From the NCBI GenBank assembly GCA_016841325.1, contig JAENZJ010000001.1:62001-126000 (forward strand): a DNA stretch of 64,000 nucleotides, read 5' to 3'. Shown here one piece after another: positions 8,249 through 43,782 of this stretch. Numbering within the stretch: the first letter of the stretch is position 1; each line of letters starts with the position of its first letter. This stretch comes from Thermincola carboxydiphila (GTDB lineage Bacteria; Bacillota; Thermincolia; Thermincolales; UBA2595). Made by a program: the position numbers and the translations under genes. The notes beneath the pieces are model-generated. The model had not been told where the DNA came from. It saw nothing but the letters and a program-made list of their open reading frames with translations, and did not search any database.

Positions 8249-11050
8249 ATGAGAAAGTTTAAAAGAATGATCGCTCTCGTAACCGTAGCTCTGTTCGTTC
8301 TCAGCTTTGCCGCTCCTGCTTTCGCTGCTGATGACACTTCAGCTGCCAATGTGGTTGTTGGTAAAGACGTAATTGGAACAAAATACGAAAATGATACTAA
8401 AAAACTTATTGCTCTGGGAATACTGACTGGTTATGAAGATGGCACAATCAAGCCGGATAACAAAATTACCCGTGCTGAGTTTGCCGCTATTGTTACCAGG
8501 GAACTTGACCTTGTTAGTGTTGGAATGGGAACTACACCGTTCAAGGATGTTCCGGCAACCTTCTGGGGCAGTGGTGTAATCAACCTGGCTTATGGTAAAG
8601 GTATTATTAAAGGATATCCCGATGGAACCTTTAAGCCTGATGCCAACGTAACTTATGCTGAAGCTATTACCATGCTGGTAAGAATGCTGGGTTATGAACC
8701 GGCGCTGAAGAATGGATCATGGCCTGCCACTCCGCTGGCAGTTGGCAGCAGCTCAGGTGTGAGCAAGGGTGTCAACGCAGTTGCCAATGAAGCTGCATCC
8801 CGCGGTGATGTTATTAAGATGGCAGCCAACGCTCTGGAAGCCGATATCATGGAACAAGTCAGCTGGGGCGATGACAACAACTATAATCAGAATGACGAAA
8901 AGAATATTCTGAGCGATGTATGGGATATTACAGTATTTGACGGCGATGATGAAGTTGCTGTAGTTGACAATACTCCTATGGTTGACCTGTCAGGATTAGA
9001 GGCTGATGAAATTGAGCTGACAGGCGGCGAAGCCAATGCAGGTATTACTTATGAGCTGAGCACGGTATTCAACCCGAATGATTATCTCGGACAAGAAGTT
9101 GAATTCTGGGTAGATGAAGATGATGATTACATTTACTATATCGCTCCCAGCGGTAACGAAGATGTAATCTTTGACAAAATTGATTCATTTGCCAGTGACA
9201 ACATTGAACTGGATGATTCCGGCGATGACTATGATCTGATTGTTGAGGACACCGATGTTGATGGCACCAGAATTTGGGTTAACATCTCCGATGAAGTGGA
9301 GTATGATGGTTCCAACATAGATCTTAGTGATTACACAGGCGCCAATGTCAAGGTAGTTCTTAACGATGATGAAGATGTTGCCGCATTAGTGGTCACAGAT
9401 TACTATCCTACTGCTGCTGCTGGTGTCATTGCTGATTCAAACATTCTCGAAGCGGTTAATGATGAGACTCTGGAATACTACGATGATACCGATCTGGATC
9501 TTGAAGACACCGATTATGTTATCGTAAGAGACGGTCTGCCTGCTGATTTAGATGACCTTGAAGAAGGCGATGTCATTAATGTGCTGCAGGATCCGGATAA
9601 GGATGACGAATATTATGTTGTTGCTACCAGTGCCAAGGTAGAAGGCGAAGTTACTGATGTAAGGTATACCAATGCAAGTGACTTCAGTGGCTTTGACATC
9701 TATGTAGATGGCGAGAAATATGATGTTGCCGGTAAGAATGGCGTAGATGTTGTTACCTTCTCAGATGATGAGAATGACGGCATCGAAAGTGTAAATGAAG
9801 AAGATGACCTTCTTGACATGATTGATGACAATGTGACCCTGTATATTGATGCACTTGGCAAGGTTCGTCACATTGTAACCGATGATGGTTCAAGCGGTCC
9901 CAAGGATGTTGCTATACTTAGTGAATCTGCTACAATAGGCGGCTTTGGAGATGAAGTAAGGTTTAAGGTTGTGAACACTTCAGGAACAGAAGTTACTTAC
10001 ACTGTTGATCCTGATGATGTTGACCTGAATGGTGCAGAAGAAACAGTAGGTACCTGGCAAGATTATCTAGATATCCTTGCTGTTACTGACAACTTCATTG
10101 TTCTTGAGCTTGAACTTGATTCCGATGGCGACCTGAAAAATGTAGATATTTTAAGAGCTGCTTACACAAATCCTCTTATGGCGGACTACGATAACGGTGA
10201 TTACGATTACCATGGTTCTTCAGCAGTAAATGAAGATGACGAGACTGTTACTTTAGGTACCGGCGATTTCCGTGTAACTGACAGCACAATCATCTTTGAT
10301 ATGACTGATGATGCTAGTGTAGATGGTGATTATGCAGATGTTGACGTAGTAGGCTGGTCCTCTATCAAGAACAAAAACGCTTTAGATGTATACGCTTCCA
10401 CAGATGATGATGAAATTGAGTACCTGTTTGTCCTGAATGCAGGCGGCGGTAACCTTACATCTGAGGGTGAGTATGGTATCTTCAAGCAGTTCACCAAGTC
10501 AGGCGGTGATGATGCAATTATCATCATTGACATGAATGGTGATGAGCAAACCATTGTTGCTGAAAGTTACAACATTCGTGAGTACATTTACGGCGATCCT
10601 GGCTCGCTGAGTAAGGGTATGTTTATCCGTTACGAGCTTGACGGTGATGAGATGGATATAGTAGATATCTTAGGCTTCCACGACAGCGTAATTGATGAAG
10701 TAACATTTGCAGTTAATGGTAATGGTAACGTTAATGAAATACTGAGTGCTAACATAGATATCGACAACTTCAGGCTTGTAAAAGTAAGCAAGAAGTCCTC
10801 AACCTATATTCTGGGTGAAATGATTGATACCGAAGCAGAGGACTTTATTGCAGGTGAAACCTACTTCACTATCAACAGCAATACTCAGTTGGTAGATGTA
10901 CATGATACCGATAAACTGAAGGCATCCGGCGCTTCTATAGGTGCTGATGACCTGGTACTCCTCATTGATACCGATGATGATGGATCTACTGCAGACTTTG
11001 TAATTAAGATTGCAGAAGACTATCCGGACACCTTTGACTGGTTACGTTAA
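8249..11050 (+). CDS. Major S-layer protein with N-terminal SLH domains
   Basis: This 933-residue secreted protein has a textbook signal peptide (cleavage near AFA, residue 26). Two clear SLH domains (about 42-90 and 95-150; GYEDGTIKPDNKITRAE, GYPDGTFKPDANVTYAE) are followed by a weaker third to about 215. The remaining 700 residues are beta-rich-looking, extremely Asp/Glu-rich and cysteine-poor, typical of a calcium-bound self-assembling lattice. ATG 8249 is chosen because AAGGGGG lies 11 bases upstream and the signal peptide begins there; ATG 8201 would add a Lys/Arg-rich stretch. A strong promoter, long leader and strong terminator suggest high expression from a single-gene transcript. Confidence 0.9.
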   Translation: MRKFKRMIALVTVALFVLSFAAPAFAADDTSAANVVVGKDVIGTKYENDTKKLIALGILTGYEDGTIKPDNKITRAEFAAIVTRELDLVSVGMGTTPFKDVPATFWGSGVINLAYGKGIIKGYPDGTFKPDANVTYAEAITMLVRMLGYEPALKNGSWPATPLAVGSSSGVSKGVNAVANEAASRGDVIKMAANALEADIMEQVSWGDDNNYNQNDEKNILSDVWDITVFDGDDEVAVVDNTPMVDLSGLEADEIELTGGEANAGITYELSTVFNPNDYLGQEVEFWVDEDDDYIYYIAPSGNEDVIFDKIDSFASDNIELDDSGDDYDLIVEDTDVDGTRIWVNISDEVEYDGSNIDLSDYTGANVKVVLNDDEDVAALVVTDYYPTAAAGVIADSNILEAVNDETLEYYDDTDLDLEDTDYVIVRDGLPADLDDLEEGDVINVLQDPDKDDEYYVVATSAKVEGEVTDVRYTNASDFSGFDIYVDGEKYDVAGKNGVDVVTFSDDENDGIESVNEEDDLLDMIDDNVTLYIDALGKVRHIVTDDGSSGPKDVAILSESATIGGFGDEVRFKVVNTSGTEVTYTVDPDDVDLNGAEETVGTWQDYLDILAVTDNFIVLELELDSDGDLKNVDILRAAYTNPLMADYDNGDYDYHGSSAVNEDDETVTLGTGDFRVTDSTIIFDMTDDASVDGDYADVDVVGWSSIKNKNALDVYASTDDDEIEYLFVLNAGGGNLTSEGEYGIFKQFTKSGGDDAIIIIDMNGDEQTIVAESYNIREYIYGDPGSLSKGMFIRYELDGDEMDIVDILGFHDSVIDEVTFAVNGNGNVNEILSANIDIDNFRLVKVSKKSSTYILGEMIDTEAEDFIAGETYFTINSNTQLVDVHDTDKLKASGASIGADDLVLLIDTDDDGSTADFVIKIAEDYPDTFDWLR

Positions 11051-11273: not shown

Positions 11274-13430
11274 ATGGGGAAGAAGAAACGGTTAGTTGAA
11301 TTAAAAGCTGAAAAAAAACAAATAAAAAAAGAAAAAGAAGAAATACCACTCCTTTTGTTTGGATTATTGGCACTGCTGTTTTATCCGCCATATTTCAGAG
11401 GCCTGTTTTTTAACCATGAATTATTAATTACCCATGCTTTGACAGCAATCCTGATTGTAGCTGTGATTTACTTTAAAATGGATGACGAATCCCTGGAGAT
11501 TTTCGGCAGCAGAATTGACTATGGGGCTGTTGGGTTACTGCTGGTTTATATAATTGCAGCTTTTGATGCTGCAGTGCCCAGAGAGGCCCTGAAAGAGATA
11601 CTTAAGCTGGTCAATTATCTTTTGATTTATTATGCGGTAGCTCACTATGCCAGGAAGTGGCAAAACATGGAGAGGATCATTTATACATTGTATTTTAGCG
11701 GGCTGGGAGTTGCATTAATTGGAATATTCTCTGCCGTGGGGATTGTAAATATAGAGGATACGCTTAAAGAAGGGCGTATATATTCCACCATTCAGTATCC
11801 AAACACTTTGGCTGTATATATTTTAGGCATTCTTGTACTTGGGATTTATTTAACTGTCAGACAGGACAACGTATATAAAAAGGCGGGTATGAGTATTGCA
11901 AATTACCTTTTATTTTTGACATTTCTGGGAACTCAGTCGAGGGGCGGACTAATGCTGCTGCCAATAACGGTGATCCTACTGATGGCTGGCGCTTTGGGGC
12001 GCTATAGATGGAAGGTGTTTTCCGCACTCTTGATTGCTGTTATACCGGCAGTTTTGATTTACCCCAAGTCCCTGAGTGATATTGCCAGAACCTTTGCCGG
12101 AGCAAATGTGGCCTGGATTTTGGCCGGGGTATTGGCGGCCGCCATACTCAGTTGGGCAGAAGGCAGGATAAATAGTGTTTTAGGCAGCACAAAAATAAAG
12201 GGAAGCCACATTGCCTTAGGGGCTGCGGTTCTGATAATTGCAGGCGGAATTATAACGGTTTTCTTTCCCCTTGGGGAAAAGGCGGCTCCGGCTTTTGCCC
12301 GAATTACAAATATATCGCTCCAGGAGAAAAATGTATTGGAGCGGGGGATATTTTATAAAGATGCCCTGGAGGTTTATAAAGACAATCCAGTATTGGGGAC
12401 CGGCGGTGGCGGCTGGGCCGGTGTATACAAACAGTATGCAAGCTATGCTTATAATTCAAGAGCTGTCCACAATCATTTCCTGCAAACTATGGTTGAGACA
12501 GGGACAGTAGGAATTATAATGTATGTTGTGGTTTGGGTAGGATTTATTTATTCTGTGTTAAAGATAATCAGACACAACAGCAATGATGACGAAAAAATTG
12601 CTATCTGGTCAGTCTTTACAGCCGCTGTTACAATTGGGCTGCACAGCTTCATAGATTTCAATCTTATGTTAGGCGCTATTTCGATATTTTTCTGGAGCAT
12701 GTTTGGACTGGTTAGGGGAATGGAAACAGGGAGAATAAATCGACAACCTGTATTTGGAATTATCGTTGATACAAGAGGCCGTGTGATAAAGAATGCTTTG
12801 GCAGCGGGTCTTGCGGTATTTGCAGTGGTCTCCTTGGTTTTGTACGCTGGGAACAGTTATGGGGAACGGGGGATACAACAACTAAATAGTGGTGAGTTAC
12901 GGCTGGCTGAGGCTAATTTGGAAAAAGCGGTTTCAATGGATCCTTTAAATTCCAGGTATAAAGGGGCTTTAGCACAGGTGTGGACATTAAAAGCCGGTGA
13001 AGACAGGGAGAAGCAGGCTCTTGAGACAGGTCTAAAACTTTCCAGGAAGGCTGTTGCTTTAGATGAGAATAATGCCGATATGCGAATAATTAAGGCTAAT
13101 ATACATTTGAAACTGGAGCAGGTTGATGAAGCGGTTAGGGAGTATGAAACAGCAGTAAAGCTTGACCCGACGAATCAAAAAAGATATGAACACCTGGCTG
13201 AATTATATCTGAAGACAGGAGAATATTACGATTACCTGGGAGAAAAAGAAGAAGCAAAAAAGTATTTTGCAAAGGTGGAAACGGTTCCGATGATGATTAC
13301 GGAACAGGTGGGGAAAATACCTTTTTCCGAAACAATGCCCTGGATAAAAAATGTTTATGACTTAACTGTTACTGATAAAATAAACAAAATGGTTTTGGAG
13401 GCGAAGGAAAAATTATCGGAGTTAGGGTAA
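11274..13430 (+). CDS. O-antigen ligase/polymerase-like membrane protein with C-terminal TPRs
   Basis: This 718-residue protein has a Lys-rich cytoplasmic start, about 12 membrane segments and a Wzy_C/WaaL-type loop (VLGTGGGGWAGVYKQY, then NHFLQTMVETG). After a last membrane segment near residue 510, a region of about 180 residues carries TPR repeats. The fold family transfers or polymerises lipid-linked glycans on the outer face. In S-layer glycosylation loci such a protein (WsaB type) attaches glycan to the S-layer protein. It follows the S-layer gene directly. Gene 37107 encodes a paralogue with the same layout. ATG 11274 has only a distant GGAAGG. Confidence 0.85.
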   Translation: MGKKKRLVELKAEKKQIKKEKEEIPLLLFGLLALLFYPPYFRGLFFNHELLITHALTAILIVAVIYFKMDDESLEIFGSRIDYGAVGLLLVYIIAAFDAAVPREALKEILKLVNYLLIYYAVAHYARKWQNMERIIYTLYFSGLGVALIGIFSAVGIVNIEDTLKEGRIYSTIQYPNTLAVYILGILVLGIYLTVRQDNVYKKAGMSIANYLLFLTFLGTQSRGGLMLLPITVILLMAGALGRYRWKVFSALLIAVIPAVLIYPKSLSDIARTFAGANVAWILAGVLAAAILSWAEGRINSVLGSTKIKGSHIALGAAVLIIAGGIITVFFPLGEKAAPAFARITNISLQEKNVLERGIFYKDALEVYKDNPVLGTGGGGWAGVYKQYASYAYNSRAVHNHFLQTMVETGTVGIIMYVVVWVGFIYSVLKIIRHNSNDDEKIAIWSVFTAAVTIGLHSFIDFNLMLGAISIFFWSMFGLVRGMETGRINRQPVFGIIVDTRGRVIKNALAAGLAVFAVVSLVLYAGNSYGERGIQQLNSGELRLAEANLEKAVSMDPLNSRYKGALAQVWTLKAGEDREKQALETGLKLSRKAVALDENNADMRIIKANIHLKLEQVDEAVREYETAVKLDPTNQKRYEHLAELYLKTGEYYDYLGEKEEAKKYFAKVETVPMMITEQVGKIPFSETMPWIKNVYDLTVTDKINKMVLEAKEKLSELG

Positions 13431-13507: not shown

Positions 13508-13646
13508 CAGGAAAACTTAACAAAAAGGATAATTTTACTGTGGCATAAAATAGGGTTTTAGGAAGGAATTTTGGATGTAAAGTAGAAAATTAACAAAGTT
13601 AGCTGTAAATTAGCGGAAAATTACCCCCTCAGGGGAGGACTTTTTG

Positions 13647-15014
13647 ATGTGGCTTTCTGACAGGAAAACAGGACTTTCTATAGTCATCATGATTATAGAT
13701 GTCCTGATTATAAATATTAGTATAATCATTGCTTATCTGATAAGGTTTAATTTTACTCTGCCACCCTATAACTTTGATCCTTATCTGCAGTTGTTCTTTT
13801 GGATATCACTTGGAAGCCTCTTCTTCTTTAATATGTATCAGCTATACTCGGTATCTCCCAGGACCAAGTGGGACAACCAGTTTTATTCAATAATCCTGGC
13901 TGTGTCACTTACATTAATGCTGAGCATATCACTTACATATATCAGCGCCAATTATGCCTTTCCACGATCTGTATTTATGCTGAGTGGATTTATCCAGGTT
14001 ATTCTGCTGACAACGTGGCGTTATTTTCTATGGAGAGCGGCCAAAAAATCCCTGGGGGTACAGAAGGCAATAATAATCGGAAATGGACAGGAGACTCTGG
14101 AGACAGCAGAGCGCTTTGCCGAATTTTCTGAGAGCCATATTGAGATAATTGGGATTATATCAGGAGAAGATTCATTCACAAAACCCGGTGGTGAAAAATT
14201 TAAAGCGCTGGGCAATACAGATGAGTTTGACAAGGTCCTGAACAGCGTTCCCTGTGATGTTGTTATTATCACCCCATCCCTTGATGCCGCATTAAAGGAA
14301 AAAATAGTATGTTTTTGCTATTCATCAGCGAGAGAGGTATTTTTGATCCCCGCTTTATATGAGGTCCTCCTTGTTAAAGCGGAGTTAAACCTGATAGATG
14401 ATATTCCGGTGTTTGGTGTAAAGAACAGCAATGGAGAAAGTAATTTTATCAAGAGATTGTTAGATTTAATTGTGGCTGTTGCTGCTTTTATCATTACCTT
14501 GCCGGTAATGGCCCTGATAGGGCTGATAATTAAACTTAATTCTCCCGGACCAATCATTTATAAGCAGGAGAGAGTGACCAAAGGTGGTAAGGTCTTTACT
14601 CTGTATAAATTTCGCACCATGGTACAGGATGCAGAACAGGGTACGGGTCCCGTATTTGCATGTGAGGATGACCAGCGGGCCACCAAGGTGGGCAGAATAC
14701 TGCGGCTGTCAAGGCTGGATGAACTGCCCCAGTTAGTCAATGTAATTAGAGGCGATATGAGTATGGTTGGCCCCAGGCCGGAACGGCCGTTTTTTGTGGA
14801 ACAGTATGTGAAGGAAATCTATGGGTACGAAAACAGGCACCGGATAAAACCCGGGATTACCGGGATAGCCCAGATAGCCGGGAAGTACAATACCGGACCG
14901 CGGGAAAAGCTGGTTTTTGACCTGCTGTATGCCAAGAGAAATAATGTTTTGGTTGATATACAGATTTTGCTGCAGACAGTGAAGGTTTTGTTTATGAGGG
15001 ATAAAGCGTCATAA
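13647..15014 (+). CDS. Polyprenyl glycosylphosphotransferase (initiating sugar-1-phosphate transferase)
   Basis: This enzyme loads the first sugar phosphate onto undecaprenyl phosphate. The 455-residue protein has four N-terminal membrane segments, a central nucleotide-binding-like region (AIIIGNGQET near residue 140) and a membrane-associated catalytic domain from about residue 275. Catalytic-domain signatures include SPGPIIYKQERV, FRTM, LDELPQLVNVIRGDMS and GPRPERPFF. ATG 13647 follows AGGGGAGGA by seven bases. It heads a run of tightly packed glycosyltransferase genes after its own terminator-bounded gap. The sugar (Gal, Glc or other) cannot be assigned. A second enzyme of this type is at 56663. 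Confidence 0.9.
   Translation: MWLSDRKTGLSIVIMIIDVLIINISIIIAYLIRFNFTLPPYNFDPYLQLFFWISLGSLFFFNMYQLYSVSPRTKWDNQFYSIILAVSLTLMLSISLTYISANYAFPRSVFMLSGFIQVILLTTWRYFLWRAAKKSLGVQKAIIIGNGQETLETAERFAEFSESHIEIIGIISGEDSFTKPGGEKFKALGNTDEFDKVLNSVPCDVVIITPSLDAALKEKIVCFCYSSAREVFLIPALYEVLLVKAELNLIDDIPVFGVKNSNGESNFIKRLLDLIVAVAAFIITLPVMALIGLIIKLNSPGPIIYKQERVTKGGKVFTLYKFRTMVQDAEQGTGPVFACEDDQRATKVGRILRLSRLDELPQLVNVIRGDMSMVGPRPERPFFVEQYVKEIYGYENRHRIKPGITGIAQIAGKYNTGPREKLVFDLLYAKRNNVLVDIQILLQTVKVLFMRDKAS
14776..14795 (+). other. Terminator-like hairpin inside the sugar transferase gene
   Basis: GGCCG (14776-14780) and CGGCC (14784-14788) flank a GAA loop, followed by G and T6. It falls on codons for the conserved PRPERPFF motif. 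The same structure occurs at 57813-57832 in the paralogous gene. Confidence 0.4.
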
Positions 15015-20638: not shown

Positions 20639-20672
20639 TTGTTTTGGGAAATGTTTGCGAAGGGTTGAAGCT

Positions 20673-21449
20673 ATGTTAGGTACGATAAAAGAAATAATTG
20701 CTTATAGAGAAATGTTAAAAAACATGGTTGTTAAGGAGTTGCGACAAAGATACAAGGGGTCAATATTAGGATTCCTTTGGACGTTTCTGAATCCTTTTTT
20801 AATGTTGGTTGTATATAGTCTGGTGTTTTCAACCATTATGCGGATTGATATGGATAATTATTCTTACTTTTTATTTGCAGGTTTACTGCCTTGGATGTTT
20901 TTTTCAAACTCTATTTTGATTAGTGCCGGAGTGGTAGTTCAAAATTCAAACCTGATAAAGAAGATATATTTCCCACGTGAAATTTTACCTATTTCAGTAA
21001 CTTTGTCAGGATTGGTAAACTACATTTTGAGTTTTATAATATTAATACCGGCCATGTTAATTTTTAAAATTCAACCTACCGAGGCTATAATTGTCTTACC
21101 TGTAGTAATAATTATACAACTGGTTATGGTCATGGGTTTTTCTTTGTGGATTGCTGGTTTGAACGTGTATTTTCGTGATTTAGAGCATATTCTATCAGTA
21201 TTTTTAATGGCGTGGTTTTATTTGACACCAATAATTTATCCTTTGAGAATGATACCCGAAAAATATTTAATGCTGATAAATTTGAACCCTGTTGCGCCGA
21301 TTATGATCGCTTATCAGGATATCTTATATTATGGTGTTTTCCCTGAATGGACTTACTTAGGTTACGATTTGCTTTTTTCGATAATTCTGCTATTTACCGG
21401 ATTAGTAGTATATGGACGATTAAAACGTAATTTTGCAGAAGAAATTTAA
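20673..21449 (+). CDS. wzm: Polysaccharide ABC exporter, permease subunit (Wzm/TagG type)
   Basis: This 258-residue membrane protein has about six membrane segments and the ABC-2 signature start (VVKELRQRYKGSILGFLW), plus LLPWMFFSNSI and LTPIIYPLRMIP. With the ATPase that follows 17 bases later it forms an exporter for lipid-linked polysaccharide. ATG 20673 is preferred over a start at 20655 because it gives the usual N-terminus. It resembles the second permease at 42875 only at family level, so the two systems are probably distinct in origin. Confidence 0.92.
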   Translation: MLGTIKEIIAYREMLKNMVVKELRQRYKGSILGFLWTFLNPFLMLVVYSLVFSTIMRIDMDNYSYFLFAGLLPWMFFSNSILISAGVVVQNSNLIKKIYFPREILPISVTLSGLVNYILSFIILIPAMLIFKIQPTEAIIVLPVVIIIQLVMVMGFSLWIAGLNVYFRDLEHILSVFLMAWFYLTPIIYPLRMIPEKYLMLINLNPVAPIMIAYQDILYYGVFPEWTYLGYDLLFSIILLFTGLVVYGRLKRNFAEEI

Positions 21450-21466
21450 TTAAGAATGGTGGTTTT

Positions 21467-22729
21467 ATGACTGTTATAGAAGTAAAAAATCTCTGGAAGA
21501 AATACCGGTTATATCACGAGAAGAGGCCTTCCCTTAAAGAGACAGTCTTGTTTAAAGGAAGAGGCCGATGGGAAGATTTTTGGGTACTCAAAAATATTAA
21601 CCTGAAAATCGAAAAAGGGGCAACTGTGGGTTTAATAGGTGAAAATGGGTCTGGAAAGAGTACCTTCCTTAAACTATTAACTAAAATTATTTATCCCAAT
21701 GAAGGGGAACTTAATATTAAAGGCCGTGTATCTAGTTTATTGGAACTTGGTGCTGGATTTCATCCTGACTTTACTGGCAGAGAAAATATCTATTTTAATT
21801 CGTCCATTTTTGGTCTTACCAAAAAGGAAATTGATAGAAGGGTTGATGATATAATCAGTTTTTCCGAATTGAGGGATTTTATTGACAATCCGGTACGTAG
21901 TTATTCATCTGGTATGTATATGAGATTGGCTTTTGCTACTGCGATCAATGTTGATCCCGATATTTTGCTTATAGACGAGGTATTAGCTGTAGGGGATGCA
22001 GCTTTTCAGAAAAAATGCTTTAACAGAATTAAAGACTTCAAAAACCAGAAAAAAACTATTGTTTTTGTTTCCCACGACCACAGTATTGTTGAAAAACTTT
22101 GTAATAAAGCTGCTTGGTTACATAATGGTGAATTACAATTTTTTGGTGATACAAAGGAAGCAGTAAACTTATATTTGGATTATTTATCAAGTAAACAGGA
22201 AAAACGAATGGCAGACGAACACGATTCTGAACCGGAAGTAGTCGTGCATAATGGAACAACCGTTGACGCTGGTAATGATAAAAAAGGACCGGAACGATGG
22301 GGTACAGGGGAAATCATGATAACAGATGTTAAAATGTTTGGTATGGAACGAAGAGAAAAATACTTTTTTGAAACCGGGGAGTCCATGGAGGTTGAAATTC
22401 ATTACAGAGTACATAGGATGGTTGATAATTCCGTTTTTGGGGTGGGATTTTTTCGGAATGATGGTTTGCAGTGTTATGGTACAAATACCTTTATTGACAA
22501 AATCAATATAGATAACTTGCAACCAGAGGGTGTTATAAAGTTTCAGACTGATTCTATGAATTTGTTAGAAGGTAAATACTATCTTGATGTTGCAGTACAT
22601 GATGATCAGGGTTGGGCTTATGATTACATAGTCAGAAGATGTACTTTTGAAGTAGCTTCCAGAATAACAGATGTCGGAGTAGCTAGGATACCACACAAAT
22701 GGGTAATAAACAACGCTGAGGTGTTTTGA
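21467..22729 (+). CDS. wzt: Polysaccharide ABC exporter ATPase with C-terminal carbohydrate-recognition domain (Wzt type)
   Basis: This 420-residue ATPase energises export of a finished glycan. The nucleotide-binding domain has Walker A GENGSGKST (58-66), signature YSSGMYMRL and Walker B DILLIDEVLAVGD. Residues from about 265 form a Wzt_C-type beta domain (GVGFFRNDGLQCYGTNTFI). In E. coli O8/O9a this domain recognises the modified chain end before export. The next gene, overlapping by one base, encodes a coiled-coil methyltransferase that could make such an end cap. Confidence 0.92.
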   Translation: MTVIEVKNLWKKYRLYHEKRPSLKETVLFKGRGRWEDFWVLKNINLKIEKGATVGLIGENGSGKSTFLKLLTKIIYPNEGELNIKGRVSSLLELGAGFHPDFTGRENIYFNSSIFGLTKKEIDRRVDDIISFSELRDFIDNPVRSYSSGMYMRLAFATAINVDPDILLIDEVLAVGDAAFQKKCFNRIKDFKNQKKTIVFVSHDHSIVEKLCNKAAWLHNGELQFFGDTKEAVNLYLDYLSSKQEKRMADEHDSEPEVVVHNGTTVDAGNDKKGPERWGTGEIMITDVKMFGMERREKYFFETGESMEVEIHYRVHRMVDNSVFGVGFFRNDGLQCYGTNTFIDKINIDNLQPEGVIKFQTDSMNLLEGKYYLDVAVHDDQGWAYDYIVRRCTFEVASRITDVGVARIPHKWVINNAEVF

Positions 22730-26509: not shown

Positions 26510-28555
26510 ATGAGCAAGGCGAAAAAGTTACTTATAGCATCAGTAGTTTTTGTGTTTTTGTTTAAAATCTGCCTATCTCTTTATATGAAGTCACCGTGGA
26601 TATTTGCTGACGAAGTCGTTTATAGTAAACAAGCGCAGCTTATTTTCGAGAATTTTAATTTTCACTATACTACTGAATTTGCTCAAACGTATCCCTTTGC
26701 GTATTCTTTAATTATTTCACCAGCATTTTTATTCGAAGATATCAATATTATTTATCATGTTATGTTGGTAATGAATGCGCTATTATCAACTCTTAGCAGT
26801 GTAGTAGCTTTTTTTCTTATTCAAAAATTCCTAAAAGATGAATATAAGGCTGTAGCGGTTGCATTTACCGTTGCCTTTCTACCTGCTGTTTTTACTTTTA
26901 CATTTACTTTAATGAGTGAGAACTTATATAACCTTCTATTTTTACTATCCATTTATTTATTATATGTTTCCTTCGAGACTGAGAAGAAAAAATATTGGGT
27001 TTTGACTGGAATAATAATTGGTGTATCGATCTTGACAAGAATGTTTGCTTTGATACTACTTCCGGCTATTTTGATTAGCGTTTTGGCTTATTTGTTCCAT
27101 AGTTCAGAAAATATTAAAAAGTGGTTTTATAATATAGTCTACTTATCTTTAGGCTTGCTAATAGGTTTATTACCCAAACTTGTACAGGCAGATACTCAAG
27201 TTACAGGATATAATAACAATATTTATTTTAATAACTTATTAAAGATGTTTAGTAGCACGGAAGATTTTCAACTTATGATGAAATTAGTTCTTAATGAAAT
27301 TAATTATTTATTTATCTCAAGCCTTGGAATTTTATTTGTTGCCACATTATATTTTATTATCCTAGTGTTCAAAAAGAATGCCAATAGCAATGAAAAAGGT
27401 TTGATGATCTATTTTGTATTAAGTGTTGTTTTTTCAATAATACTAACAGTTGCCCATATGTATACAGCAGCTTCAAACCCTAGTCACAGCGAACATTTAT
27501 CTTATTTTGCTTTTGGAAGATATATTGAACCGCTTGTGCCAGTACTGTTTATTTTTGGGTTCATTGGTCTAGAAAAATTGAGTCTTAGGTCAAAAGTATT
27601 CCTAATATTAAGTTGTATTCCTATTTTATTCATTATCATTTTTACGTTCCCTAGAAGCCATTATAAATTTCCGAACATGTTTAGTTTATGGTTTACTCAA
27701 GTTAATTTGCAATTTTTATTAATAACGGTATTCGCTTGCATATTATCCATTATTGCTCTACTTTCAAACCTGAAATTGAGATATAAAGTTGTTCCAATTT
27801 TGATTACATTGTTTTTATTTAACATTGCCCCGTTGTCCAAAGTAATCAAAAGTTCTTCTAATGCGAGAGAATTTATTGTTGCTTCATGGTTTTATGAAAA
27901 TGAAATATATGATAAAAAAATATATATTGATGAGGAAAGTTATCACCCTACCCAATATTTTGGAGCGTTATTCTGGGCAGAAAGAAATTCGGTCCATGTA
28001 ACTAATTTTAAAAAAATTGAAGGTTTAAATAGTGGATTTTTTATTACTACAAAACTTCTGCCATATAGAATTGTTAGAACTGAAAAAGATTATAAGTTAT
28101 ATGATTTAGCTAACACTCTCGTTACGAGAAATTTAAGTGAATACATTAATTTTGGTGAAAATGATGAAAATGCTCATTTCGAAGGATTTTATGATCCAGA
28201 ACATAATAGTCAATTTAGCTTTAGATGGACGAATGGAAGTGCAAAAATACTCCTTCCACTAAGAGGAGATAATCTGGATTATAAAGTTCAATTCAAAGCG
28301 AGTAGTAGGCCGGACCTAGTGTCTTCTGATATAGAAATATTTGTAAATGGAAAACAAATTAGCCGTTTTAAAGCCATTAAAGGAACTCATATTTATACTG
28401 TAAAAATAAGTAAAGCTATTACTAATGAACTGCCGGATGAATACTTTGAGCTTTCTATATTCAATAAACCATTTAATCCAAAAGAGTTAAATATTAGTCA
28501 AGATAACCGTAATTTGGGCTTGGCGGTTGATTGGATATCTATAAAAGAAGATTGA
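26510..28555 (+). CDS. GT-C fold membrane glycosyltransferase (ArnT/GT39-like)
   Basis: This 681-residue protein has about 11-12 membrane segments and a soluble C-terminal region of about 180 residues. The first outer loop has the acidic motif FADEVVY (residues 32-38), placed like the catalytic Asp/Glu of GT-C enzymes. GT-C enzymes use polyprenyl-phosphate sugars outside the membrane. The genes at 29361 and 30348 encode a possible flippase-like protein and a DPM/GtrB-like donor synthase, so this is the likely final transferase of a three-part set. The C-terminal region may be a beta-sandwich carbohydrate-binding domain. Confidence 0.78.
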   Translation: MSKAKKLLIASVVFVFLFKICLSLYMKSPWIFADEVVYSKQAQLIFENFNFHYTTEFAQTYPFAYSLIISPAFLFEDINIIYHVMLVMNALLSTLSSVVAFFLIQKFLKDEYKAVAVAFTVAFLPAVFTFTFTLMSENLYNLLFLLSIYLLYVSFETEKKKYWVLTGIIIGVSILTRMFALILLPAILISVLAYLFHSSENIKKWFYNIVYLSLGLLIGLLPKLVQADTQVTGYNNNIYFNNLLKMFSSTEDFQLMMKLVLNEINYLFISSLGILFVATLYFIILVFKKNANSNEKGLMIYFVLSVVFSIILTVAHMYTAASNPSHSEHLSYFAFGRYIEPLVPVLFIFGFIGLEKLSLRSKVFLILSCIPILFIIIFTFPRSHYKFPNMFSLWFTQVNLQFLLITVFACILSIIALLSNLKLRYKVVPILITLFLFNIAPLSKVIKSSSNAREFIVASWFYENEIYDKKIYIDEESYHPTQYFGALFWAERNSVHVTNFKKIEGLNSGFFITTKLLPYRIVRTEKDYKLYDLANTLVTRNLSEYINFGENDENAHFEGFYDPEHNSQFSFRWTNGSAKILLPLRGDNLDYKVQFKASSRPDLVSSDIEIFVNGKQISRFKAIKGTHIYTVKISKAITNELPDEYFELSIFNKPFNPKELNISQDNRNLGLAVDWISIKED

Positions 28556-28625
28556 AATATTAAAGCCATTTTATCTAGTTATTCCATTTTACTGGGGAAC
28601 GAGTTTTTTGAAAAGAGGTTATACG

Positions 28626-29354
28626 ATGAACGTAATTAATACGCAACCCAGTCTATTGAAAGCCTTAACAATAAGAAATAGTTTTAACAACTATAATCAG
28701 TGGATATATAATAAAACCAAAAAATATCTTGGGAAAAAGATTATGGATGTTGGCTCTGGAACAGGGAATCTCGTTGAGTTGTTTCTACCGCATTCCGAGT
28801 ACATTTTATGCACAGACCTGTTTCCGGAAAACATTGATTATATGAAAAACAGATTTAAAAATCACAAAAATGTTGGGTTTATATTAGGTGATTTTGTCCA
28901 AACAGACTTATGCCTGGAAGATTATTTATTTGATACAATTACATGTATTAATGTTCTGGAACATATAGAGGAGGATTATAAGGCTTTAGAAATCATGAAA
29001 AATATTTTACAGCCCTGTGGCAGAATAATATTACTTGTTCCTGCTTTTCAGTTCTTATACGGCACGATGGATATAGCATCGGGTCACTATAGAAGATATA
29101 ATTCAGGAGTTTTAAGAAAATTTGCAAAGGAGCTCCATTTAAAAATTTTAGATAATTTTTATTTTAATATTTTTGGAATAATTCCTTGGTATATCAATGG
29201 TAAGCTGTTGAGAAAAAATAAAACTTATTCTGAGACTCTGGGTAAACAAAGAATTGGTTTTTATAATAGACTAGTTCCTTTTTTGGAAAAAATAGACCAA
29301 ATTAATCCATTTCCAATAGGTATTTCTGAAATAATTGTTTTACAAAAGGATTGA
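28626..29354 (+). CDS. Class I SAM-dependent methyltransferase
   Basis: This 242-residue enzyme shows motif I IMDVGSGTGNL (near residue 40), an acidic residue after the second strand (CTDLF), and NVLEHIEEDYKAL and GRIILLVPAF as later motifs. ATG 28626 is behind AGAGG; an upstream ATG at 28608 lacks a good site. The family includes sugar O-methyltransferases and polyprenol-related enzymes. It sits between the GT-C gene and the PF03706-like gene, so it may methylate the lipid-linked sugar or the finished glycan. Confidence 0.8.
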   Translation: MNVINTQPSLLKALTIRNSFNNYNQWIYNKTKKYLGKKIMDVGSGTGNLVELFLPHSEYILCTDLFPENIDYMKNRFKNHKNVGFILGDFVQTDLCLEDYLFDTITCINVLEHIEEDYKALEIMKNILQPCGRIILLVPAFQFLYGTMDIASGHYRRYNSGVLRKFAKELHLKILDNFYFNIFGIIPWYINGKLLRKNKTYSETLGKQRIGFYNRLVPFLEKIDQINPFPIGISEIIVLQKD

Positions 29355-29360
29355 TTATTT

Positions 29361-30347
29361 TTGAAATTTAAAAAGATAGTGCCTGTTATATTAACAGTTT
29401 TTATATTTTGGTTTTTTTTTCAGTTTATCAATTTTAAACATTTGATTAGCATGTCTGTAAAACTGTCATGGAAGTCAGTTGTTAGCGCTACAGCATTATA
29501 TTTTGTAAGCAATTACTTCCGTGCAGAAAGGTTCCGTCTTTTATCCGGCAAGCCGGCAAGTATAGTCCAGATGCTACGGATTGTATTTTTATATGGGTTT
29601 TATAATAAAGTGCTGCCTTTTAGAACAGGAGAGATATCATATGCTTTTCTAATGAAAAAATCTAATTATTCTACTTATACTGAAAGCTTATCTACCCTAT
29701 TGATAACACGTATATATGATGTTTTTTCAGCCTTTCTTTTATTGTTAATAGCTCTCCTTTTTTCCCGTGAAGTAATGCCACTTTTTCATCCGGCATTAAT
29801 AGCCAGTTTGTTGTTAGTGATTGTTGTCATTTTATACAACTTACCTTATATGTTTAAAATTATAGAAGTAATATTCCATAGAATCCTGATCCCTGACCGA
29901 TTTGGTATAAGTTCAGAAAGACTGCAAAGTTACAGTAATAGAATTCAATTTTTAATTGACTGGTTTACAAAAACGAGTAATTCAATGGTTATGCTAAAAT
30001 TGGCAGTATTATCTTTTTTAATGTGGCTCAGTCTTTATGGAACATTTTTTATACTCATGAGCCAACTAGGTTTTTACTTACCATTTAGCGGAATCGTTAT
30101 TGGCTCAGTGTTCGCAAATTTTTCTAATTTATTACCGGTTAGCGGGGTTGGTGGGTTCGGGACTATGGAGGCAGGATGGGCAGTAGGATTTACTTTGCTT
30201 GGTGTAAATCGTAATGATGCAATAGCCACAGGTGTTGTTATTAATTTATTCATTTTTTTGTGTACGGCTGGGTTTGCTTTAATTGCTTTGTTAGTTACTA
30301 TTTATACAAAAAAATACTTGCATAGTTCTGATGAGGAGGAAATGTAA
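29361..30347 (+). CDS. Multi-spanning membrane protein of the LPG synthase TM / UPF0104 family
   Basis: This 328-residue protein has about eight membrane segments. Signatures of the PF03706 family include NYFRAERFRLL, LPFRTGEISYAFLMKK and, near the end, LLPVSGVGGFGTMEAGWAVG (adjoining motifs). Relatives flank polyprenyl-phosphate glycosyltransferases in many genomes, and some act in lipid or sugar-lipid transfer. It starts at TTG 29361 and ends one base before the next gene. A flippase or accessory role for polyprenyl-phosphate sugar is inferred from context only. Confidence 0.8.
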   Translation: MKFKKIVPVILTVFIFWFFFQFINFKHLISMSVKLSWKSVVSATALYFVSNYFRAERFRLLSGKPASIVQMLRIVFLYGFYNKVLPFRTGEISYAFLMKKSNYSTYTESLSTLLITRIYDVFSAFLLLLIALLFSREVMPLFHPALIASLLLVIVVILYNLPYMFKIIEVIFHRILIPDRFGISSERLQSYSNRIQFLIDWFTKTSNSMVMLKLAVLSFLMWLSLYGTFFILMSQLGFYLPFSGIVIGSVFANFSNLLPVSGVGGFGTMEAGWAVGFTLLGVNRNDAIATGVVINLFIFLCTAGFALIALLVTIYTKKYLHSSDEEEM

Positions 30348-31352
30348 TTGAAATTAATAATTCAAATTCCATGTTTGAATGAAGAAAAAACCTTGCCCAT
30401 CACCGTTGGTGATATTCCTCGCAGCATTCCTGGTATAGATGAAGTAGAAATTCTAATCATTGATGACGGTTCCACGGACCGAACAGTCGAAGTTGCTAAA
30501 GAGTGTGGTGTAAATCATATAGTAAAAATACCACAGACAAAAGGACTTGCTAATGGTTTTAAAGCAGGTATAGATGCCTGTCTTAGATTGGGCGCTGATA
30601 TAATTGTAAATACCGATGGGGATAACCAATATAAAGGACAGGATATTCCAAAGCTTATACAGCCAATCCTTGAACAAAAAGCCGAAATGATTATTGGAAA
30701 CCGGCAAATAGATACAATTGATCATTTTTCGGATACAAAAAAGTTTTTACAAAAGTTTGGTAGTTGGGTTGTTAGACTGGCTTCGGCCACAGATGTTCCT
30801 GACACAACAAGTGGTTTTCGAGCTTATAGCAGGGAAGCGGCTTTAAAAATCAATGTTCTGTCGGAATTTACATACACACTTGAAACTATCATTCAAGCCG
30901 GACAGAAAAACATCACTGTTTCCCATGTGCCTATCGGTACTAACGAAAAACTTCGTGAGTCCAGGCTTTTTAAGAGTATCAGGGACTATATTAGCAGGTC
31001 GATTGTTACTATTGTTCGCATTTATACTATGTATAGACCCTTAAAGGTATTTATGAGGTTAGGAGCTATAATATTCGGCCTGGGTTTTTTACTAGGCCTA
31101 AGATACTTATATTTCATGTTTACAGGTTCAGGGGGAGGGCATATTCAATCATTAATTTTAACTACTATATTAATTGTTATGGGGTTTCAGATATGGGTTT
31201 TCGGACTTTTGGCGGATTTAATTTCTGCAAATCGTAAGTTGAATGAAGAAACTTTGTATCGTGTTAGGAAGCTGGAACTGGATAATTATACTTTGAAGCA
31301 AACATTTGATTCGGTGGCAGCCACAATAGATAAAACAATCAATTATAATTGA
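30348..31352 (+). CDS. DPM1/GtrB-like polyprenyl-phosphate glycosyltransferase (GT2)
   Basis: This 334-residue enzyme is predicted to make a polyprenyl-phosphate sugar on the cytoplasmic face. The GT-A domain shows IQIPCLNEEKTLP, ILIIDDGSTDRTVEVA and VNTDGDNQY (the DXD-like metal site). TSGFRAYSREAAL follows, and two C-terminal membrane segments lie at about 230-290. TTG 30348 follows GAGGAGG. It directly abuts the PF03706-family gene. The donor sugar is unknown. It closes the AT-rich cassette; the next gene returns to higher GC. Confidence 0.87.
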   Translation: MKLIIQIPCLNEEKTLPITVGDIPRSIPGIDEVEILIIDDGSTDRTVEVAKECGVNHIVKIPQTKGLANGFKAGIDACLRLGADIIVNTDGDNQYKGQDIPKLIQPILEQKAEMIIGNRQIDTIDHFSDTKKFLQKFGSWVVRLASATDVPDTTSGFRAYSREAALKINVLSEFTYTLETIIQAGQKNITVSHVPIGTNEKLRESRLFKSIRDYISRSIVTIVRIYTMYRPLKVFMRLGAIIFGLGFLLGLRYLYFMFTGSGGGHIQSLILTTILIVMGFQIWVFGLLADLISANRKLNEETLYRVRKLELDNYTLKQTFDSVAATIDKTINYN

Positions 31353-31387
31353 TTGTTACTAAAAAACGGTGGACAGGGGAGGTAACC

Positions 31388-32242
31388 ATGCACATCCTAA
31401 TCACGGGCTCCAATGGCATGTTCGGTCACGCCCTGACAGCCGTCTTATCAAAACAACATCCACTTACAGGTTTTGACCTGCCCGAATTGGACATCACCAA
31501 TCTGTCGTCAGTGAAAGCAGCTATTTCTACATGTCGGCCAGATGTCATTATTAACGCAGCCGCTTACACCGATGTCGATGGTTGTGAAACAAACGAAAAC
31601 CAGGCTTTTGCCGCTAATGCTACCGGCCCCCGCAATTTAGCTGTTATAGCTAACGAACTCAACATTCCTCTTGTCCATATCAGCACAGACTATGTCTTTG
31701 ACGGGATAAGCCCAATTCCCTATAATGTGTCAGACATACCCAATCCGCAAAGTGTATACGGTAAATCGAAATTGTCAGGCGAAAAGCATATCCGGGAACT
31801 ATGCAGCAGGCATTACATAATCCGTACTTCCTGGCTTTACGGGCTACACGGCAGGAATTTCGTTTCTACCATGCTATGTTTAGCGCGTGAACAGGACGAA
31901 CTTGGCGTAGTCAATGACCAGACAGGCTCTCCTACGTATACCGTTGATTTAGCTGAGGCGATTGCCCAATTAATTCTCATCAAGCCTGCATACGGGACCT
32001 ACCACATTACTAACAGCGGGACTTGCACCTGGTATGAGTTTACCCTTGAAATATTAAGGCAGGCCGGCATCAGTGGGGTAAGGGTTAATCCCATCACCAC
32101 AGAGGAAATAAACAGGCCTGCGCCAAGGCCCCGATATTCGGTTCTAGATAACAGCAAATGGCACACAATAGGGGGGACCCCTCTGCGCCACTACAAAGAG
32201 GCTTTGGCTGATTACCTCAAATCACTCACCAAGGAGGACTAA
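31388..32242 (+). CDS. rfbD: dTDP-4-dehydrorhamnose reductase
   Basis: RmlD reduces dTDP-4-keto-L-rhamnose to dTDP-L-rhamnose. The 284-residue protein has the short-chain dehydrogenase pattern: nucleotide-binding GSNGMFG (residues 7-13), HISTDYVFDG and the catalytic YGKSKLSGE. ATG 31388 follows AGGGGAGGT. It opens the rhamnose gene set, ordered reductase, thymidylyltransferase, epimerase, dehydratase. The frame open from 31349 overlaps the preceding gene and has no ribosome site. Confidence 0.93.
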   Translation: MHILITGSNGMFGHALTAVLSKQHPLTGFDLPELDITNLSSVKAAISTCRPDVIINAAAYTDVDGCETNENQAFAANATGPRNLAVIANELNIPLVHISTDYVFDGISPIPYNVSDIPNPQSVYGKSKLSGEKHIRELCSRHYIIRTSWLYGLHGRNFVSTMLCLAREQDELGVVNDQTGSPTYTVDLAEAIAQLILIKPAYGTYHITNSGTCTWYEFTLEILRQAGISGVRVNPITTEEINRPAPRPRYSVLDNSKWHTIGGTPLRHYKEALADYLKSLTKED

Positions 32243-32244
32243 AT

Positions 32245-32985
32245 ATGAAAGGTATAGTACTTGCGGGTGGGACAGGCTCAAGGCTTTTTCCGCTTACAAA
32301 AGTGACTAATAAACATCTGCTTCCGGTCGGTCAGTATCCAATGATTTATCATCCGATTTTCAAACTAAGAAATGCCGGTATCAGCAAGATCCTTATTGTC
32401 ACCGGCAAAGACCACATGGGGGACGTGGTCAACCTGCTGGGCAGCGGGTACGACTTTGGCATGGAGTTTACCTACCGTGTTCAGGACCAGCCAGGGGGGA
32501 TTGCCCAGGCCCTGGGGCTGGCGGAACAGTTTGTCGGGGATGATTTATGTACTGTCATCCTGGGAGACAATATTTTTGCTGATGAAATAACAGATTGTGT
32601 CAATGATTTTATAGCCCAGGGGAAAGGGGCCAAGATACTGCTGAAGCAGGTAGAAGACCCCCAGCGGTATGGGGTAGCTGAGCTCCAGGGCGCCAATATT
32701 CTCTCAATTGAGGAAAAGCCGCAGGCGCCTAAAAGCAATTACTGTGTGACCGGAATATATATGTATGATTCTAGGGTTTTTGACATCATTAGGACCCTAA
32801 AGCCTTCCGGGCGCGGTGAACTGGAAATTACTGACGTAAATAATGCATATATTGCTGAAGGCACACTTACATATGGGATTCTAAACGGCTGGTGGACTGA
32901 TGCCGGTACTTTTGAGTCATTGCTTAAGGCTAATGAACTTGCCAATGGGGTCAGGCTGGATAACGGTGAACAAATAGCCGGATAG
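32245..32985 (+). CDS. rfbA: Glucose-1-phosphate thymidylyltransferase (short RmlA type)
   Basis: The enzyme makes dTDP-glucose from glucose-1-phosphate and dTTP. The 246-residue protein begins GIVLAGGTGSRLFPLTKVTNKHLLPV (two adjoining signature motifs) and contains LGDNIFAD and IEEKPQAPKSNY. It is about 45 residues shorter than enterobacterial RmlA, matching the short class common in Bacillota and archaea. AAGGAGG precedes the start, and it lies two bases after rfbD. Confidence 0.92.
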   Translation: MKGIVLAGGTGSRLFPLTKVTNKHLLPVGQYPMIYHPIFKLRNAGISKILIVTGKDHMGDVVNLLGSGYDFGMEFTYRVQDQPGGIAQALGLAEQFVGDDLCTVILGDNIFADEITDCVNDFIAQGKGAKILLKQVEDPQRYGVAELQGANILSIEEKPQAPKSNYCVTGIYMYDSRVFDIIRTLKPSGRGELEITDVNNAYIAEGTLTYGILNGWWTDAGTFESLLKANELANGVRLDNGEQIAG

Positions 32986-33021
32986 CAAGAAAGAATTGAA
33001 ATGTTTAAAGGAGTGAGAGCA

Positions 33022-33483
33022 TTGAACCTTATAAATGGAGTTAAAATTAAAAACCTCAGGGTCATCCCCGATGAGCGCGGGCGTCTTATGGAAATGTTGC
33101 GCTGTGATGATGACCTGTTTATCAACTTTGGTCAGGCGTATATGACTACTGCCTATCCCGGTGTTGTCAAGGGGTGGCATTATCACAAGAAGCAGTTGGA
33201 CAACTTCGTTGTTGTCAGAGGGATGATGAAGGTTGTCCTTTATGACAGCAGGGAGGATTCGCCCACCAAAGGTGAAGTTAATGAGTTCTTTATGGGTGTA
33301 CACAACCCAATTCTGCTGCAGATTCCGACTTATGTATACCACGGTTTCAAATGCATCAGTGATGAGGAAGCAATAGTGGTCAATTTCCCCACTGAACCGT
33401 ACAATTACAGTGAACCGGATGAATTCCGCGTGCATCCCCACGATAATGACATTCCTTATGACTGGGCCAGAAAGGACGGGTAA
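33022..33483 (+). CDS. rfbC: dTDP-4-dehydrorhamnose 3,5-epimerase family protein (short RmlC type)
   Basis: This 153-residue cupin shows GVVKGWHYHKKQLDNFVVVRG (adjoining motifs) and VYHGFKCISDEEA, matching the RmlC family, with the active-site histidine in WHYHK. It is shorter than classical RmlC (about 180 residues). Placement in the rhamnose set supports the 3,5-epimerase role, although related dTDP-sugar isomerases exist. TTG 33022 is chosen because AAAGGAG lies eight bases upstream; ATG 33001 would add seven residues with only a weak site. Confidence 0.8.
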   Translation: MNLINGVKIKNLRVIPDERGRLMEMLRCDDDLFINFGQAYMTTAYPGVVKGWHYHKKQLDNFVVVRGMMKVVLYDSREDSPTKGEVNEFFMGVHNPILLQIPTYVYHGFKCISDEEAIVVNFPTEPYNYSEPDEFRVHPHDNDIPYDWARKDG

Positions 33484-33484
33484 C

Positions 33485-34459
33485 ATGAACGGCAAAATAC
33501 TTCTGGTCACAGGAGGAGCAGGCTTTATCGGGTCAAATTTTATTCTGTATATGTTTAACAAATATCCAGAGGTGAAAATCATTAATCTTGACCTGCTTAC
33601 TTATGCAGGCAATCCGGAGAACCTGAAAGATATTGCTGACAACCCCAATTACACCTTTGTCAAAGGTGATATTGCCGACTCCGGGATTGTCAACAGGGTT
33701 GTACCGGGTGTTGATTATATTGTCAATTTTGCGGCTGAATCCCATGTGGACCGCAGTATCGAGGATCCGCTGATCTTCATTAAAACAAATGTGATGGGGA
33801 CCCAGGTTCTGCTTGATGCTGCTAGAAAGCACGGTGTGGAGCGGTATCTCCAGGTATCCACAGATGAGGTTTATGGATCCCTGGGGCCAACCGGATATTT
33901 TACTGAAGAAACCCCCTTGGCGCCAAACAGCCCGTATTCTGCCAGCAAGGCAGGTGCTGACATGCTGGTCAGGGCTTACCATGAAACTTACGGACTGCCC
34001 GTGCTGATTACCCGCTGTTCCAATAATTATGGCCCATATCAGTTTCCCGAGAAACTGATCCCGTTCTTTATCAAGAGGCTGCTGAACGGTCAAAACGTGC
34101 CCGTATACGGTGACGGGTTAAATGTCCGGGACTGGCTGTATGTTGAGGACCACTGTGCTGCCATTGATATGGTCCTGCAAAAGGGCAGGATTGGAGAGGT
34201 ATATAATATTGGCGGTAACAATGAAAAGACCAATATAGAGATAACAAAACTCATCTTACAGGGGCTTGGCAAACCTGAGACAATGATAGAGTATGTCAAA
34301 GACAGGCTGGGCCATGACCGCAGGTATGCCATAGATTCGGGCAAGATCCAGAGTGAGCTGGGGTGGCGGCCGGCAACCTCTTTTGAGGACGGCATAGAAA
34401 TGACAATAAAGTGGTATCTCTATAACAGGGACTGGTGGGAGAAACTGGCGGACAGGTAA
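33485..34459 (+). CDS. rfbB: dTDP-glucose 4,6-dehydratase
   Basis: RmlB converts dTDP-glucose to dTDP-4-keto-6-deoxyglucose. The 324-residue protein has GGAGFIG (10-16), STDEVYGSL, the catalytic SPYSASKAGAD and NNYGPYQFPEKLIPF, all diagnostic. ATG 33485 lies one base after the rfbC stop. It completes dTDP-L-rhamnose synthesis in this operon. A terminator follows seven bases downstream of its stop. Confidence 0.95.
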   Translation: MNGKILLVTGGAGFIGSNFILYMFNKYPEVKIINLDLLTYAGNPENLKDIADNPNYTFVKGDIADSGIVNRVVPGVDYIVNFAAESHVDRSIEDPLIFIKTNVMGTQVLLDAARKHGVERYLQVSTDEVYGSLGPTGYFTEETPLAPNSPYSASKAGADMLVRAYHETYGLPVLITRCSNNYGPYQFPEKLIPFFIKRLLNGQNVPVYGDGLNVRDWLYVEDHCAAIDMVLQKGRIGEVYNIGGNNEKTNIEITKLILQGLGKPETMIEYVKDRLGHDRRYAIDSGKIQSELGWRPATSFEDGIEMTIKWYLYNRDWWEKLADR

Positions 34460-43711: not shown

Positions 43712-43782
43712 TAATAGCAAAGTATAATTGCTGCAATACCATAAGTTGTTAAACAACATGACTGCTAAGGTAAGGTGTTTTT

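Follow-up and report, generated by a model that had tools for sequence, protein, structure and literature searches.

A candidate four-component polyprenyl-phosphate-sugar cassette with an MprF-like membrane protein in an S-layer-glycan-like locus of Thermincola carboxydiphila

Introduction

A run of four genes in a 64,000-nt stretch of Thermincola carboxydiphila DNA (contig JAENZJ010000001.1, positions 62,001-126,000; hereafter the window, which also sets the numbering of all open reading frames (ORFs)) encodes a candidate GT-C glycosyltransferase, a methyltransferase (MT), a PF03706 membrane protein and a DPM1/GtrB-like GT2 glycosyltransferase. These genes are read here, with a probability of about 0.58, as a cassette of four components for extracytoplasmic glycosylation, set in an S-layer-glycan locus. 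The reading starts from the observed gene identities, their synteny in relatives, the recurrence of the parts across phyla and the MprF-lobe fold of the modelled PF03706 protein.

The four genes and their products

26510..28555, + strand: candidate GT-C glycosyltransferase (PMT_2), 681 aa; Pfam PMT_2 43.1 bits, cut-off 26.1
28608..29354, + strand: class I S-adenosylmethionine (SAM)-dependent MT, 248 aa; Methyltransf_11 52.3 bits, cut-off 21.2
29361..30347, + strand: PF03706 (LPG_synthase_TM/UPF0104) membrane protein, 328 aa; 112.4 bits, cut-off 33.4
30348..31352, + strand: DPM1/GtrB-like GT2 with C-terminal membrane helices, 334 aa; Glycos_transf_2 75.8 bits, cut-off 23.3

The coordinates and Pfam matches confirm a preliminary description of this DNA, in which four ORFs of these families were placed together on one strand. 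They form a tight run with intergenic gaps of 52, 6 and 0 bases. TTG is the listed start codon of three of the four genes, and the upstream sequences examined indicate that the MT more probably starts at the ATG at 28626.

The solved structures nearest to the GT2 in a search of the PDB are the DPM synthase 5mlz and ArnC, and its best curated NCBIfam model is that of AglJ (TIGR04182; 126 bits, under the cut-off of 325). A D-x-D-x-Q motif, the metal-site pattern of DPM synthases, is present as D90/D92/Q94 and is retained in 81 of 84 relatives. The GT2 is thus a candidate polyprenyl-phosphate-sugar synthase. The MT has an intact SAM motif, DVGSGTG, together with GHYRRY. The first outer loop of the GT-C protein carries Asp34-Glu35, of which Glu35 is invariant and Asp34 is present in three of the four aligned sequences; an Asp-Glu pair in this loop is also known from PMT/ArnT enzymes. 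The polyprenyl-phosphate-sugar logic proposed for these genes in the preliminary description is supported by the DPM synthase/ArnC relationship of the GT2 and by the PMT_2 match and first-loop Asp-Glu pair of the GT-C. The AlphaFold2 (AF2) model of the GT-C, built from the four-sequence alignment, is unusable (mean predicted local distance difference test score (pLDDT) 43.6); in this low-confidence model, residues about 490-681, past the last membrane helix, appear as a soluble, beta-rich region. Transmembrane (TM) helices are given throughout as a simple hydropathy count.

The PF03706 protein as a candidate flippase

The AF2 model of the PF03706 protein, built from 14 sequences, has a pLDDT of 82.8 and a predicted template-modelling score of 0.80. 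It superimposes on six MprF chains with Z scores of 18.2-19.0 over 277-288 residues at a root-mean-square deviation of 4.9-5.2, and the aligned part of MprF covers chain residues about 25-350; the next, unrelated match has a Z of 6.1, so that other families are ranked lower in Z rather than excluded. Foldseek also places MprF entries at the top, at weak E-values (5e-3 to 5e-2), and the protein exceeds the cut-off of the "flippase-like" model TIGR00374 (52.5 vs 43.2 bits). The comparison with MprF proposed earlier finds the N-terminal lobe of that protein, and it is this PF03706-related part of MprF that is needed for lipid translocation according to the portion of the source available (PMC5898192). 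On the basis of the model, the PF03706 protein is a candidate flippase or scramblase for a lipid-linked sugar.

Of the three parts of a Gtr system, a predicted GtrB-like synthase and a PMT_2-type GT-C are present, whereas no match to GtrA (PF04138) is found in the window genome, which has one PF03706 protein in total. The set is accordingly not filed as a Gtr system but may work like one. The proposal that the PF03706 protein takes the role of GtrA holds in so far as the MprF-lobe fold, the missing GtrA match and the excess of PF03706 over GtrA near this kind of GT2 (see below) go together; the "GtrA position" of its gene is an analogy. To call the flippase candidate unusual was an overstatement, as a trio of PF03706, DPM1-like GT2 and PMT-type protein had been predicted for archaea in 2015 (PMC5898192, as far as available).

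Recurrence of the components in relatives and in other phyla

Ten genomes were sampled in the class of the window genome. In the sister genome G005, all four genes are syntenic, at 77, 87, 81 and 92% identity. A genome of another genus (G009) has the order MT-PF03706-GT2-rmlDACB, with the MT, PF03706 and GT2 proteins at 65, 60 and 84%, and a different PMT_2 protein farther upstream. The synteny of all four genes in one genome and the shared MT-PF03706-GT2-rmlDACB order in another genus amount to more than chance. In G003 the GT2 is kept (81%), and the gene directly preceding it encodes a highly divergent PF03706 protein (52 bits); a second set nearby reads GT2-aminotransferase-like-PF03706-MT-PMT_2, in which the aminotransferase label is a reading of the sequence.

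Shorter sets are also found in this class. A PF03706-GT2-GT87 trio is present in three other genera (L010:5612-8530, L011:8516-11462 and L012:10141-13096). GT87 is the family of the polyprenyl-phosphate-mannose-dependent PimE, and by its gene content the trio is likely to be a polyprenyl-phosphate-mannose system with an MprF-like flippase. In G001 (L171:4666-9505), two membrane proteins without Pfam matches are followed by PF03706, GT2, a sulfatase-family (PF00884) membrane protein and GT87; the PF00884 protein is possibly a phospho-substituent transferase of the same pathway. By positions read by eye, 8 of the 17 PF03706 matches over cut-off in the class adjoin a DPM1-like GT2, three of them followed by GT87. 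A gene fusing GT2 and GtrA lies next to one for a PIG-V-like protein in G003, and a similar gene is present in G002; GT2 proteins of this class thus occur with flippases of both types.

The most compact relative lies far outside the class. In Leclercia sp. 29361 (L155), GT2, MT, PF03706 and a 601-aa protein with 9 TM helices are contiguous, with unrelated genes on either side and no GtrA match in the genome. The 601-aa protein has no Pfam match, is related to the PMT_2 protein of a Bacteroidales metagenome-assembled genome (MAG; E about 1e-6) and carries Pro-Asp-Glu-Phe near its start. A genome of the same taxonomic order, G675, encodes relatives in identical gene order at 77, 59, 35 and 34%. 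Within that order, a relative of the Leclercia PF03706 protein was found in only 4 of the 295 genomes, the query included, so that the set is accessory there; no relatives of the Leclercia stretch were detected in E. coli genomes. A scan of viral contigs yielded no relative, and a phage search gave two distant matches, in Listeria phages. By locus, the four components are contiguous in L155, L277 and L111. The Bacteroidales MAG (L111) has PMT_2-GT2-MT-PF03706, its PF03706 protein being below the cut-off at 21.8 bits. Plasmids of Ruegeria and Sulfitobacter carry GT2, PMT_2-like protein, glycosyltransferase, MT and PF03706, with the PMT_2 match weak in Ruegeria and missing in Sulfitobacter. In G570, an unclassified 599-aa protein with 8 TM helices, GT2, a 426-aa protein, MT and PF03706 follow one another, and G158 has GT2-MT-MT-PF03706 with a contig end inside the GT2. 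A search for the four-gene order had been suggested in the preliminary description. It bears out the recurrence of the components (Leclercia, another Enterobacterales genome, the Bacteroidales MAG) but finds the exact order in the genus only; GT2-MT-PF03706-GT-C sets do recur, some of the GT-C calls being weak.

Linkage of PF03706 and the methyltransferase to the GT2 subfamily

A first scan of genome contigs with the PF03706 protein as query gave no matches, and a GT2 alignment used as query gave relatives. The resulting sample comprises 84 loci, namely the best 80 of 565 confirmed genome loci, with 56-67% identity, many phyla and some flanks cut by contig ends, and 4 plasmid loci. A PF03706-type gene lies on the same strand within 3 kb in 23 of the 84, adjacent to the GT2 in 7 of them, whereas none was seen in 40 RmlB-anchored control loci (Fisher p 4.7e-5; taxa unmatched, the controls coming from one phylum and the GT2 loci from many). 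Membrane proteins encoded up to 3 kb from the GT2 gene number 95 and come from 61 of the 80 genome loci; 20 are PF03706, 9 PMT_2, 5 Polysacc_synt and 2 GtrA, which makes PF03706 the most frequent membrane family recognised in the neighbourhood of this GT2 subfamily. On a quick GT2 tree, built without archaeal rows, the PF03706 label changes 11 times, at least 5 changes being forced by supported branches, so that the linkage has been made or kept repeatedly.

The count of 23 includes a divergent PF03706 branch that Pfam misses or scores under its cut-off (L216:2600-3547, L222:10692-11609, L223:11698-12603, L111:10620-11504 and L155:10574-11476); L042:12087-13028 is a member that does pass. The proteins of L216, Ruegeria and Sulfitobacter have no Pfam match and are nevertheless BLAST relatives of the Pfam-accepted G003 protein, which served as the query (E 5e-10 to 9e-16). 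Members of this branch accompany the GT2, often also MT and GT-C.

Several observations weigh against the cassette reading. Only one genus has the four genes in exactly this order. In 61 of the 84 GT2 loci no PF03706-type gene lies on the same strand within 3 kb (8 have one farther away, and in 53 none was found). Anchored the other way round, this GT2 adjoins 1 of 40 PF03706 loci, and that one is from the class of the window genome; the 40 were hand-picked from the best-scoring part of the phylum scan and include two from this class. PF03706 as a constant companion of this GT2 was rejected on these counts. An MT gene near the GT2 (METHYLTRANSFERASE) is not enriched where PF03706 is present (6/26 vs 6/58, p=0.18), leaving the MT statistically unsupported as a fixed partner, and L220 has MT, GT2 and a membrane protein without PF03706. 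A sequence search finds no solved relative of the window GT-C at E<=1. In related lipid systems, HexF is not essential for product formation (PMC10128005) and a gpgF mutant still produces glucosaminyl phosphatidylglycerol (PMC12713373), as far as these two sources are available. By analogy with the promiscuous MprF of Pseudomonas aeruginosa (PaMprF), specificity may not lie in the PF03706 protein.

In an alternative reading, the PF03706 protein is a general scramblase for membrane lipids or for spent polyprenyl phosphate on its return, and another, unlinked transporter flips the sugar-lipid. PaMprF is a scramblase that acts on many lipids and needs no energy input (PMC11980842, as far as available). 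PF03706 is common, occurring in 219 of 398 genomes of the phylum, and the 1/40 reverse linkage indicates a broad family of which only part serves this kind of GT2. However, the linkage to the GT2 subfamily far above the RmlB control and its repeated gain or retention on the tree argue against such a general role, which we consider unlikely. Within the cassette reading, the tolerated removal of HexF and GpgF and the promiscuity of PaMprF suggest that the PF03706 protein may be a permissive conduit, with the partner enzymes setting specificity.

The position of the MT is the newest part of the picture: in unrelated loci its gene is directly upstream of PF03706. This holds for five of the six GT2-anchored loci with both genes (L111, L121, L155, L222 and L223). 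The same order in the window, L008 (the G005 locus), L009 (that of G009), L216, L277, L278 and L279 is not independent evidence, these loci having been found with module-protein queries, and the order is reversed in the second set of G003. The adjacency suggests, at the level of gene order, that the PF03706 protein carries a lipid-sugar in methylated form. Alternatively, the MT acts outside the lipid-sugar module on the growing S-layer glycan, for instance by adding a chain-ending methyl cap as the WsaE domain does; WsaE ends S-layer glycan chains by methylating rhamnose (PMC2943079, as far as available). Over the whole sample, PF03706 shows no excess of neighbouring MTs, and the window locus contains two more MT-domain genes, at 22726 and 46120. 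Against this, the MTs of Leclercia and L277 belong to sets of four genes that no further glycan genes adjoin, which points to the lipid-linked sugar or its nucleotide donor as the substrate, and the five-of-six adjacency also speaks for the module. An action on the glycan is thus possible, though not the option we favour.

The S-layer-glycan-like locus around the module

8201..11050, + strand: SLH protein (Pfam SLH), candidate S-layer protein
11274..13430, + strand: Wzy_C + TPR protein (Pfam), WsaB/WsfB-like ligase candidate
13644..15014, + strand: phosphoglycosyl transferase (Pfam Bac_transf), candidate initiating enzyme
20655..22729, + strand: Wzm/Wzt-type ABC glycan exporter, two genes (Pfam ABC2_membrane, ABC_tran + Wzt_C)
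31349..34459, + strand: rmlD, rmlA, rmlC and rmlB, dTDP-L-rhamnose synthesis (Pfam); adjoin the module in three genomes

Between the SLH, ligase and phosphoglycosyl transferase genes and the module, glycosyltransferase genes accompany the Wzm/Wzt pair. Farther upstream, genes for a LytR-CpsA-Psr protein, for SLH proteins and for a polysaccharide pyruvyl transferase are found; downstream of rmlDACB, one more SLH protein is encoded, as is a second ligase-like protein. The GC content falls to 30% at the module, in the centre of the locus. In S-layer glycan (slg) clusters, Wzm/Wzt lie upstream and rml downstream, with the lowest GC in a strain-specific centre (PMC2943079, in its available part). 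The window has the same organisation, with Wzm/Wzt upstream, rml downstream and a low-GC, glycosyltransferase-rich centre; it reads as an S-layer glycan locus by gene organisation, and the candidate S-layer protein may be glycosylated. The setting of outside-face decoration put forward earlier is thereby supported.

The second Wzy_C + TPR ligase-like protein is at 37089-39230 and a second Wzm/Wzt pair at 42875-45069; the doubling of ligase-like proteins and exporter pairs suggests two glycans, each with its own ABC export and ligase. Scans of the window against Rfam and for tRNAs gave no matches. L-rhamnose, as the product of the adjoining rmlDACB genes, was considered as a possible module sugar; rml serves the whole locus, however, and the Leclercia module has no adjoining rml.

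In the sister genome G006 (L230, C11:24000-43900), the flanks are kept, mostly at 75-94% identity with lower values for SLH, ligase-like and some glycosyltransferase genes, while in the centre the module is missing and different genes and a different Wzm/Wzt take its place. Conserved flanks around a replaced centre indicate that the module is a cassette in the variable centre of the locus. This centre swap resembles serotype switching. Such variability, together with the GC of down to 30%, would also fit unrelated glycan genes that became neighbours accidentally or through serotype-like shuffling. However, the MT-PF03706-GT2 order is common to two genera and the four parts lie together in unrelated phyla, so that this explanation is highly improbable.

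Proposed mechanism

In the cassette reading, the GT2 would transfer a nucleotide-activated sugar to polyprenyl phosphate at the cytoplasmic face, as its family and motif suggest. The MT may methylate this sugar, either on the lipid or as the nucleotide-linked precursor, a step proposed from gene position and the weakest of the four. The PF03706 protein, acting as a scramblase or flippase in the manner of MprF and taking the role of GtrA, would bring the (methyl-)sugar-phospholipid to the outer leaflet; fold, context and the absence of a GtrA match are consistent with this. Finally, the GT-C would transfer the sugar from the lipid to an outside acceptor; the glycan that the adjacent Wzm/Wzt system exports is the most likely one, with the S-layer protein as the other option.

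More tentatively, and doubtful as a whole, the set may be a portable and widespread four-component system that occurs in three bacterial phyla or more. Methylation would take place with the sugar already on polyprenyl phosphate, and the PF03706 protein would carry the lipid in this methylated form. Such a system would fill the missing flippase step of lipid-linked side-chain addition to S-layer glycans, and would have been overlooked because some of its flippases are missed or scored too low by Pfam. No description of a four-part bacterial set or of a methylated lipid-sugar intermediate was found in the literature searched, the scope of which left out most subscription papers and all bioRxiv preprints.

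Flippases for polyprenyl-phosphate-sugars are mostly guesses, and the locus and its compact Leclercia relative tie an MprF-like protein to a sugar-lipid synthase and a GT-C. The module predicts a methylated lipid-sugar intermediate, and an MprF-like fold and scrambling are amenable to in vitro study. The flippase question left open in a 2010 S-layer review (PMC2943079, as far as available) thereby becomes testable.

Comparison with known systems

The slg clusters of Geobacillus stearothermophilus and Paenibacillus alvei resemble the window in having Wzm/Wzt upstream, a low-GC glycosyltransferase centre, rml downstream and WsaP/WsaB-like ends. WsfH/WsfD of P. alvei have been proposed as a lipid-linked glucose branch system; the P. 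alvei cluster has no flippase gene in the available part of the review, which leaves the point open, whereas the window links a candidate flippase to the pair (PMC2943079).

In HexSDF of Clostridioides difficile (PMC10128005) and GpgSDF of P. aeruginosa (PMC12713373), a stand-alone MprF-like flippase likewise lies beside a sugar-lipid synthase and a modifying enzyme. According to the available parts of these papers, both differ from the window set in that they make glycolipids with a diradylglycerol or phosphatidylglycerol anchor and have a deacetylase, but neither GT-C nor polyprenyl carrier.

Gtr O-antigen modification (GtrB, GtrA and Gtr GT-C) is similar in that a polyprenyl-phosphate-sugar synthase, a membrane transporter and a GT-C are encoded together and decorate an already exported glycan on the outside. 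A related three-component system is that for ribofuranose in Citrobacter youngae (PMC11127046, as far as available). The window set differs from these in its PF03706/MprF-like transporter, in place of an SMR-type GtrA or a MATE protein, and in the added MT.

For archaea, a flippase prediction of this kind was made in 2015, reportedly by Makarova and co-workers. In the AglD/arCOG00899 neighbourhoods (MJ_1079, MJ_1080 and HVO_1859), PF03706/COG0392 proteins, the predicted flippases, lie beside or are fused to an AglD-like GT2 and lie beside a PMT/STT3-type protein (PMC5898192, as far as available). A PF03706 gene adjacent to a DPM1-like GT2 and near a GT-C is likewise found in the window and in L010, L011 and L012. 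The archaeal systems are dolichol-based, and no methyltransferase is named for them in the accessible text of the same source, whereas the window set belongs to a bacterial S-layer-type locus and includes an MT. The four genes are thus a real, recurrent module near the known three-component systems, not categorically new, and set apart from them by a candidate flippase of another class and an added methyltransferase.

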